32,184 nucleotides of DNA from Nostoc sp. TH1S01 (GTDB taxonomy: Bacteria; Cyanobacteriota; Cyanobacteriia; Cyanobacteriales; Nostocaceae), in assembly GCA_018993265.1 (NCBI GenBank), contig JAGKSW010000007.1, positions 1-32,184 of the forward strand, written 5' to 3'. The notes beneath the pieces are model-generated. The model did not search any database and was not told the DNA's origin. It worked only from the letters and a program-made list of their open reading frames with translations. Shown here piece after piece: positions 312 through 4,135 of the stretch; within the stretch, counting starts at the first letter, position 1, and every line of letters starts with the position of its first letter. The translations under genes and the position numbers were made by a program.

Positions 312-377
312 GTCCCATATCTTTTTTTATCTCGCGCAAAGGCGCAAAGAGGAGCGCAAGAGTGTAGTTTCAAGCTC

Positions 378-719
378 GAAGTTTCGTGTTCGGAAGTGAA
401 ATGATGAAGTTGTGAAGGTGATCGCTTGACCTTTTTACTCAAAGTTTCGTGTTCTGAGTTGGAATGATGGAGTGACGAAGGCAATCGCTTGACCTTTTTA
501 CTCAAAGTTTCGTGTTCTGAGGCGGAATGATGGAGTTATGAAGGCGATCGCTTCACCTTTTGACTCGGCGTTTCGTGTTCTGAAGTGGAATGATGAAGTT
601 TTGAAGGCGATCGCTTGACCTTTTTACTCGAAGTTTCGTGTTCTGAAGTGGAATGATGAGCTTTTGAAGGCGATCGCTTGACCTTTTGACTCGGAGTTTT
701 AGGTTCTAAGTTGAAATCC
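378..719. repeat. 63-bp tandem repeat array, five full units plus a partial sixth
   Basis: Units start at 378, 441, 504, 567 and 630; each is exactly 63 bp, and a 27-bp remnant follows at 693-719. A unit reads GAAGTTTCGTGTTCTGA..., then GGAATGATG..., GAAGGCGATCGCTTGACC and TTTTACTC. It holds a HIP1 octamer in three units and one-base variants of it in the other two. The units differ by substitutions only, with no indels. Because 63 is a multiple of three, the minus strand keeps a long frame of 21-residue repeats (SEHET, KVKRSPS, LHHST), but a TAA in the third unit (about 536) breaks it. There are no unique spacers, so it is not a CRISPR array. Region 312-377 holds nothing I recognise. Confidence 0.9.
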
Positions 720-2473: not shown

Positions 2474-2749
2474 CTAATCCTCAAATATCTGTGTTGTAGA
2501 TATTTCAAATTTCCGATTGGGAACTATGATGGGTGGTTGAGTTTCAAAATAAACTTGAGTATCGACGACGGAGTGTGGCGATCGCAACTGAGCGGAATTT
2601 CTCAATTCACCTTAGACTAAACTATGGTTGTTTTCCGCCCTCAGTTCACGAGCAAAAAAATATATTGATTAATACAAAATGTAGACAAATTAAATCTTTA
2701 CTGTAGAATCAAAACCAACTTCAACCCTTGAAAATTACGTATTATTTTT

Positions 2750-2764
2750 GGAGGTAGGCTTATT
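2750..2764 (+). promoter_or_regulatory. Shine-Dalgarno that places the murA start on an ATT codon
   Basis: A perfect GGAGG (2750-2754) sits 7 bases before ATT (2762-2764), which is in frame with murA. The frame is closed upstream by TGA at 2729-2731, and no ATG, GTG or TTG lies in frame between that stop and TTG at 2822, which has no Shine-Dalgarno. This makes ATT the best-supported initiation codon. Confidence 0.65.
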
Positions 2765-4135
2765 AATCCTTCTACCAGCTTACCAGATGCCAAGCTTGCA
2801 TCTCAAGCAGACTCCTCAGTCTTGCAAATTTGGGGTGGGCATCCTTTGCACGGTCATGTAAAAATTAGCGGAGCAAAAAATTCAGCACTGGTAATCATGG
2901 CTGGAGCATTGCTCTGTTCAGGAGATTGTCACATCCGTAATGTTCCCTTGTTGGCGGATGTGGAAAAAATGGGGCAAGTTTTATCAGCTTTAGGTGTAAG
3001 TGTTTCACGTCAGGGCGACATTTTAGATATTAATGCCAGCAACATTAGTACATCTAAAGCTCCCTACGAACTTGTTACTCAACTACGAGCCAGTTTTTTT
3101 GCCATTGGTTCTATACTAGCCAGGCTAGGGGTAGCACAAATGCCATTACCTGGTGGCTGTGCAATTGGCGCTCGACCAGTTGATTTGCACGTTCGGGGGC
3201 TACAAGCGATGGGAGCCGAAGTGCAGATTGAACATGGCATTTGTAATGCGTATGTTCCCGGTGGTGGCAGATTAAAAGGAGCCAAAATTTACCTCGACAC
3301 TCCTAGCGTGGGAGCAACAGAAACATTGATGATGGCTGCCACGCTTGCAGATGGCGAAACTATCATCGAAAATGCGGCGCGTGAGCCAGAAGTTGCTGAT
3401 TTAGCGAATTTCTGTAACGCAATGGGAGCCAAAATTCACGGTGCTGGCACTAGCATAATTACAATTGTGGGTGTTCCCCAATTGCATTCTGTTGACTACA
3501 GCATTATTCCCGATCGCATTGAAACTGGAACTTTTTTAGTTGCTGGTGCAATTACTCGTTCTGAAATCTCATTATCCCCAGTTGTCCCCGACCATTTAAT
3601 TCCCGTAATTGCTAAACTGCGGGAAATTGGTGTACCCATCATTGAGGAAGCCCCAGATTGTTTGCGACTGCTACCTGCGGAGAATCTCAAGGCGACATAT
3701 ATTGAAACCTTGCCTCATCCCGGCTTTCCCACAGATATGCAAGCACCGTTTATGGCATTGCTCACCTTAGCTGAAGGTGACAGCATCATTAACGAATCTG
3801 TGTTTGAAAATCGCTTGCGTCATGCTTCCGAGTTAAATCGCTTGGGTGCAGATATTCGCGTTAAAGGAAATGCAGCCTTTATCAGGGGAGTACCAAAGTT
3901 ATCAGGTGCGCCCGTTTTAGGCACAGACTTGCGTGCATCAGCCGCCCTAGTCTTAGCTGGACTAGCAGCAGAAGGACAAACTACCTTCCAAGGATTGCAT
4001 CACCTAGATCGCGGCTATGATCGCCTGGATATTAAGTTGCAACAATTGGGCGCTAAAATCAAGCGTGTGAATGAAGTTTCAACACCAGGGGTGACACCTA
4101 ATGGTAGTACCCCACCAGTAACGATTTCAACCTAG
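2762..4135 (+). CDS. murA: UDP-N-acetylglucosamine 1-carboxyvinyltransferase (first step of peptidoglycan synthesis)
   Basis: MurA moves the enolpyruvyl group of phosphoenolpyruvate to UDP-GlcNAc in the cytoplasm and is the target of fosfomycin. With the ATT start the protein has 457 residues, against about 419 in E. coli; the extra length is an N-terminal tail ([20 protein letters not shown]) and a loose C-terminal tail. Catalytic elements are present: Lys-Asn in SGAKNSAL (residues 39-40), the catalytic Cys loop [15 protein letters not shown] (Cys133, corresponding to E. coli Cys115), [21 protein letters not shown] with the catalytic Asp, and the C-terminal [10 protein letters not shown] containing the conserved Arg. 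The start rests on GGAGG spaced 7 bases from ATT; TTG at 2822 is the fallback. The gene stands alone, diverging from tRNA-Leu. Confidence 0.93.

Follow-up and report, generated by a model that had tools for sequence, protein, structure and literature searches.

The murA gene of Nostoc sp. TH1S01 likely starts at an AUU codon, and AUU, AUC or AUA start sites recur in cyanobacterial murA

Our analysis of a stretch of 32,184 nucleotides from Nostoc sp. TH1S01 (the window, by which we mean the whole stretch) indicates that the AUU codon at position 2762 is likely to be the real start of murA and to have been kept weak by selection. A preceding sequence-only reading of this DNA had proposed that murA begins at ATT, a rare non-AUG codon, and comparison with other genomes speaks for that proposal: ATT, ATC or ATA (hereafter AUH, or ATH in the DNA) occupies the site in 28 of 42 sampled cyanobacterial families. 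The best reading of these comparisons appears to be that the AUH start of murA is ancient in cyanobacteria and has been kept by selection. It is also plausible, as had been suggested, that initiation of murA is poor or regulated.

The identity of the gene is clear, since its product scores 556.1 bits against the MurA family model TIGR01072 (UDP-GlcNAc 1-carboxyvinyltransferase; cut-off 392.7) and is matched by MurA chains in the PDB with E-values down to 1e-131; MurA catalyses the first step in building the cell wall. Direct reading of the DNA agrees with the layout described earlier. The murA frame is closed on its 5′ side by an in-frame TGA (2729-2731), after which come the codons AAA TTA CGT ATT ATT TTT GGA GGT AGG CTT and then ATT (2762). 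From there the frame continues as ATT AAT CCT TCT ACC AGC TTA CCA GAT, and later reaches GTC TTG (2822). Between the TGA and this TTG, the murA frame contains no ATG, GTG or TTG. GGAGG lies at 2750-2754 and is separated from ATT 2762-2764 by a spacer of exactly 7 bases (2755-2761). Read from ATT, the protein has 457 amino acids; the list of open reading frames, which was restricted to ATG, GTG and TTG, opened murA at TTG 2822, giving 437 amino acids. The features of the start region are as follows.

2729..2731, plus strand: in-frame upstream stop TGA (direct reading)
2750..2755, plus strand: Shine-Dalgarno sequence GGAGGT (direct reading)
2762..2764, plus strand: ATT, likely murA start codon (reading and comparison across genomes)
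2762..4135, plus strand: murA coding sequence from ATT, 457 amino acids plus stop (alignments with PDB MurA chains begin at query residue 19-26)
2765..2818, plus strand: N-terminal extension (about 18 codons), not covered by the alignment of any PDB MurA chain
2822..2824, plus strand: TTG, first canonical in-frame start codon, without a Shine-Dalgarno sequence 5′ of it (direct reading)

Whether ATT is kept in other Nostocales or stands in place of ATG was the comparison that the sequence-only reading had proposed. Among 80 loci from named Nostocales genomes (the best 80 of 306 loci encoding a relative), the start position is ATT in 68 and ATC in 12, and ATG, GTG or TTG in none. All 80 carry GGAGG 7 to 9 bases before an in-frame ATH, and GGAGGTAGGCTT 5′ of the start codon is almost invariant among them. 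The same holds within the genus, where the 11 genomes, the window's own included, have ATT (8) or ATC (3).

For a broader view, we drew on a search that found murA in 384 of 388 genomes and assembled a sample of 170, consisting of the 11 genus genomes and 159 genomes spread over 42 cyanobacterial families. The latter comprise the 29 loci returned by the class search besides the window's own, part of the further listed places, and, for families missing from that listing, 60 of 62 individually searched genomes (G019 and G084 were left out, their match being broken or at a contig end). The sample was picked for family coverage and is therefore non-random, its families are phylogenetically non-independent, and it overlaps with the named set, since 16 of the 170 start regions are identical to one among the 80 loci. 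GGAGG or AGGAGG stands 7-9 bases 5′ of an in-frame ATH in 131 of the 170 genomes and in 28 of the 42 families, so that a strong Shine-Dalgarno sequence before a weak start, as in sigR-type genes, is the common state. The codon is ATT in 91 of these 131 genomes, ATC in 31 and ATA in 9, and the spacer measures 7 bases in 32, 8 in 96 and 9 in 3. Three of the 131 sites precede the GAKN motif by 68-74 codons and could be chance occurrences, though 28 families remain without them. Four further genomes have ATT at the site and were not counted among the 131 (L116 behind GGGGGG, L125 behind GGAGG, L192 and L219 behind GAGG). By this test 12 of the 42 families show no AUH site or only a doubtful one (f5), and the feature is therefore dispensable; in f11 and f35 an AUH site follows GAGG. 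One genome of family f13 (L163, G324) retains ATT at the site, has lost the Shine-Dalgarno sequence and carries an in-frame GTG five codons upstream, likely a transitional state.

The arrangement of GGAGG followed after 7 to 9 bases by ATH occurs in murA more often than chance would produce. A simpler scan of the 170 genomes placed GGAGG with ATH at this distance in the murA frame in 132 (L125 being included here), whereas the +1 frame yielded a single such genome and the +2 frame none. Other orders of the same five bases gave 13 hits for GAGGG, part of which overlap GGAGGG sites, 7 for GGGAG, 1 for GGGGA and none for AGGGG; CCTCC likewise gave none. When the in-frame codon behind GGAGG was tallied irrespective of its identity, ATT was found 92 times, ATC 31 and ATA 9 times, ATG and GTG once each, and TTG, CTG and ACG never. 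The infC gene served as a control: 36 genomes supplied 30 loci, all readable but L282, and each of the 29 readable ones has an ATG, GTG or TTG in frame before the conserved INE motif. AUH is therefore not what the method, or these genomes, yield for genes in general. The same result leaves the idea of infC as a second cyanobacterial AUH gene unsupported, and the device known from E. coli seems not to be at work in the gene for cyanobacterial IF3 itself.

How the codon has changed over time was traced by parsimony on a tree of 150 MurA proteins, and one of several equally short solutions involves 20 changes of the start state, of which 14 are exchanges among ATT, ATC and ATA, 5 lead from AUH to another arrangement and 1 leads from another arrangement to ATG. 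The non-AUG codon is conserved across species and AUG is rare, as ATG occupies the site in a single one of the 170 genomes (L200; f40, G090). There, AGGAGG is followed after 8 bases by ATG and then by ACT CTC as in AUH relatives, which makes a direct step from AUH to AUG likely, unlike its placement by parsimony, and thus yields a ratio of about 14 to 1. AUG is tolerated in L200, which offers a natural revertant for comparison. At fourfold sites of the same genes G makes up 21% (mean over families, 26%), and the probability that 28 families would all lack G comes to about 1e-4 if they were independent, a rough figure given that the families are related and that f40 holds the one ATG. Furthermore, GGAGG before a canonical start is rare, being confined to L200, L220, L222 and L227 among the 35 genomes without AUH; hence the strong Shine-Dalgarno sequence and the weak codon go together. 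If the initiator tRNA decodes AUH, ATG would specify an identical protein, and its rarity would therefore point to selection for a weak start. We conclude that AUG at the murA start is probably selected against.

The region around the start contains further elements that might bear on its expression.

2682..2709, plus strand: putative sigma-70-type murA promoter, TAGACA, 16 nt, TAGAAT (consensus match at 10 of 12 positions)
2753..2784, plus strand: possible Nostocaceae hairpin, GGUAGGCU (2753-2760) with AGCUUACC (2777-2784), with ATT in the loop (fold)
2809..2822, plus strand: AGACU-CCUC-AGUCU, an unproven candidate for a further small hairpin (hardly any variation in its columns, with one double change)

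Five promoter-like sites were observed in the region as compared to 1.4 in shuffled sequences, and 73 of the 80 named Nostocales loci have a -10-like motif 55-61 nt 5′ of the start codon. With the putative promoter at 2682-2709, the leader would probably be about 45 nt long. In those 73 loci the -10-like hexamer (2704-2709 in the window) and a YRAAAC following it are kept together; a slightly looser form of this pair occurs in 53 of the 131 AUH genomes, and its distance from the start is 50-65 nt in 51 of these. A known RNA leader was rejected, because a search of region 2300-2900 (E up to 1) matched no Rfam family over the murA leader or start and returned only a tRNA on the minus strand, which lies at 2334-2415. 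Further away in the window (370-710) we noticed by eye about five degenerate head-to-tail repeats of about 62 bases each (AAGTTTCGTGTTCTGA...GGAATGATG...GGCGATCGCTTGACCTTTT); a core resembling GCGATCGC recurs in every one of them.

According to folding, the hairpin of GGUAGGCU and AGCUUACC would cover part of the Shine-Dalgarno sequence. Among 50 chosen Nostocaceae loci, 96.8% of the cells of the stem are paired and 13 are unpaired; there were no compensatory changes in the stem in these loci, RNAalifold saw practically no covariation around the murA start, and the hairpin did not form in L069, L082, L100 and L118 or in the non-Nostocaceae that were folded. A start-region hairpin in Nostocaceae is thus possible, though unproven. 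The loop of the second candidate hairpin is complementary to GAGG of the Shine-Dalgarno sequence. In Nostocaceae (78 of the 80 named loci), synonymous conservation reaches 0.97-1.0 over codons 2-9 and 15-22, with a variable stretch between them, and lies at 0.62-0.76 in ten-codon blocks counted from codon 51.

With respect to how such a start might work, we propose that the 30S subunit would be placed by the near-perfect Shine-Dalgarno sequence GGAGGU 7 bases upstream of AUU 2762, and that the initiator fMet-tRNA would pair with two of the three bases of AUU, such that MurA would begin with fMet. The third base of the codon could then drift among U, C and A, with G being avoided. The initiation rate would be low, most likely because the mismatched third base is discriminated against, chiefly by IF3, and synthesis of MurA would come to depend on the level or activity of IF3, as is the case for infC of E. 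coli and sigR of Streptomyces. Passages of a study of IF3 (PMC10158994) report that the factor favours stronger third-base pairs and that, when a test amino acid was used in vitro, weak pairs, AUU with the anticodon CAU being one of those tested, yielded hardly any product. We also considered, and rejected, a special initiator tRNA whose anticodon would differ from the usual one, as the exact-arm pattern CGGGCTNATAACCCG gave one copy in the genome, with the anticodon CAT.

For the genus, the anti-Shine-Dalgarno sequence was checked in the genus mate G001, in which a 16S 3′ end pattern with ACCTCC occurs in 3 copies. Of 5 genomes searched for the 16S 3′ end GGATCACCTCCTTT, 2 contained it, this draft assembly not being one of them; a shorter 16S 3′ end (GGCTGGATCACCTCC) turned up in 3 of 6, the exceptions being this draft, G041 and G035. 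On the side of the factor, 14 of the 36 cyanobacterial genomes searched, this one included (G000:C151:17376-17822), contain a second IF3-like match, which is divergent in 12 of the 14, scoring 126-157 bits as compared to about 240 for normal infC. This raises the question whether a second IF3 could alter start-codon choice.

Dependence of MurA synthesis on IF3, taken by itself, strikes us as an even proposition. The fuller idea, which we put forward tentatively, is that the amount of MurA made reflects the state of translation initiation, that is, the level or occupancy of IF3, by way of an AUG-avoiding start that has persisted through most of cyanobacterial evolution and is possibly tuned by the second IF3-like protein and, in Nostocaceae, by the start hairpin. 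If true, cell-wall growth would be hard-wired to the status of the ribosome.

Several other readings have to be weighed against initiation at AUU 2762, the most obvious of which is that TTG 2822 is the real start in this organism and the ATT region a conserved leader. This TTG (codon 21) is present in 83 of 85 Nostocaceae loci examined, PDB MurA chains align from about there, and a product starting there would fall short of E. coli MurA by just a few residues. However, no Shine-Dalgarno sequence precedes it, TTA or CTG takes its place in L046, L073, L100, L112 and L118 and CTT in three f39 loci, and the Shine-Dalgarno sequence with in-frame ATH recurs in 28 families. In 20 of the 131 AUH genomes, from 11 families, the stretch between the upstream stop and a point 12 codons short of GAKN, about the first strand of the enzyme, contains no ATG, GTG or TTG, and in 14 of the 131 there is none up to GAKN itself; G041 (f26, L206) is one AUH genome without any canonical alternative. 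In those 20 genomes AUH, or something stranger, must therefore be used. The window is not one of them, as TTG 2822 remains available as an alternative, and among the named Nostocales only 2 of 80 are free of canonical codons to 12 codons before GAKN and none to GAKN itself, because the TTG at codon 21 is kept. Taken together, we regard a start at TTG 2822 as improbable. A start further upstream, at an NTG overlapping the Shine-Dalgarno sequence, or entry from another frame by frameshift or recoding, would make ATT an inner codon. Such in-frame NTG codons do exist in 71 of the 131 AUH genomes, and 40 of the 103 codons concerned sit at codon -5, where they overlap the Shine-Dalgarno sequence itself; but they are otherwise scattered, 102 of the 103 have no Shine-Dalgarno sequence of their own, 60 genomes, the window's own among them, have none, and the likely RNA start, judged from the promoter match, is only about 45 nt 5′ of ATT. 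As to other frames, a start-bearing +1 frame crosses the site in 71 of the 80 named Nostocales loci, in most cases with the TTG within TTGGAGG, 14 bases 5′ of ATT, as its opening codon, yet in 53 of the 131 AUH genomes no start-bearing frame does so, which makes a conserved frameshift unlikely. Within the extension the murA frame is open, with stops in the +2 frame in 122 and in the +1 frame in 88 of the 131 genomes. As a general reading, an upstream start or a frameshift was rejected as unconserved, and for the window it is very improbable. An error of sequencing or assembly hiding a true ATG is the least credible of all: ATT or ATC in 11 of 11 genus genomes and in 80 of 80 named loci refutes it for the clade, and these independent genomes make it very unlikely that resequencing would reveal ATG at 2762, the outcome named earlier as decisive against an ATT start.

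The remaining alternative accepts AUU as the true start and departs from the IF3-dependent reading in the last step only, in that the codon would set a constant low level of MurA without regulation by IF3 or anything else. The same sequence evidence speaks for it, and no response to a signal is visible in the data. Yet a constant low level could also be attained with AUG behind a weaker Shine-Dalgarno sequence; instead, a strong Shine-Dalgarno sequence and a poor codon are paired in 28 families, as in sigR, which passages of one report describe as controlled by IF3 (PMC5472188). We therefore regard a constant level as a serious contender, if one with somewhat less than even prospects.

Irrespective of how the last step is resolved, initiation of murA at AUH would have several implications. 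In 28 of the 42 families sampled, an essential metabolic gene carries an AUH codon at its start site; AUG could be reached by a single base change that leaves the protein the same, yet it occurs there in 1 of 170 genomes. The murA start may thus be looked upon as a natural selection experiment on initiation efficiency, and the shared odd start suggests that the cell gains from inefficient initiation of MurA. Why a cell would want a poor start codon for this enzyme is directly testable in transformable cyanobacteria. In practical terms, annotation that allows only ATG, GTG and TTG as starts would truncate MurA by about 20 residues.

To our knowledge, well-studied natural AUH starts are few, mainly those of infC and pcnB, and little is understood of how such starts are used in genes other than infC. 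The pcnB gene of E. coli, which starts with AUU, is such a gene other than infC, and it differs from murA in function and lineage. Among cyanobacteria, passages from a proteogenomic study of Nostoc sp. PCC 7120 (PMC8557916) mention eight revised genes that begin with ATA or ATT and cite Sato and Tajima 2012 (Genomics 99:138) for such starts; these genes belong to the same group of bacteria as the one described here and are not named in those passages. Among the matches listed in our literature search, no title or abstract mentions a murA with a non-AUG start, though the ATT start of cyanobacterial murA may already be in print. The closest parallels are found in passages on Streptomyces and E. 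coli (PMC5472188), according to which infC starts with AUU in E. coli and with ATC in Streptomyces and IF3 discriminates against this start. Nor is infC the only known case of a non-canonical start used for control, since the same passages describe sigR as experimentally shown: its GTC start lies behind a very strong Shine-Dalgarno sequence, AGGAGGTG, is repressed by IF3 and is conserved in Streptomyces. With infC, murA shares the AUH start codon; infC, however, encodes IF3 and regulates itself, while murA encodes a cell-wall enzyme. With sigR, it shares the combination of a non-canonical start and a strong Shine-Dalgarno sequence in a gene that does not encode IF3, but on the evidence of those passages sigR is a sigma factor gene with GTC in one genus, whereas murA has ATH in many families of a phylum. 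It would thus appear that murA joins the genes of the infC/sigR type, in which an AUH or similarly weak start stands behind a strong Shine-Dalgarno sequence, and that it is remarkable among them for the evolutionary depth of the arrangement and for the gene concerned.
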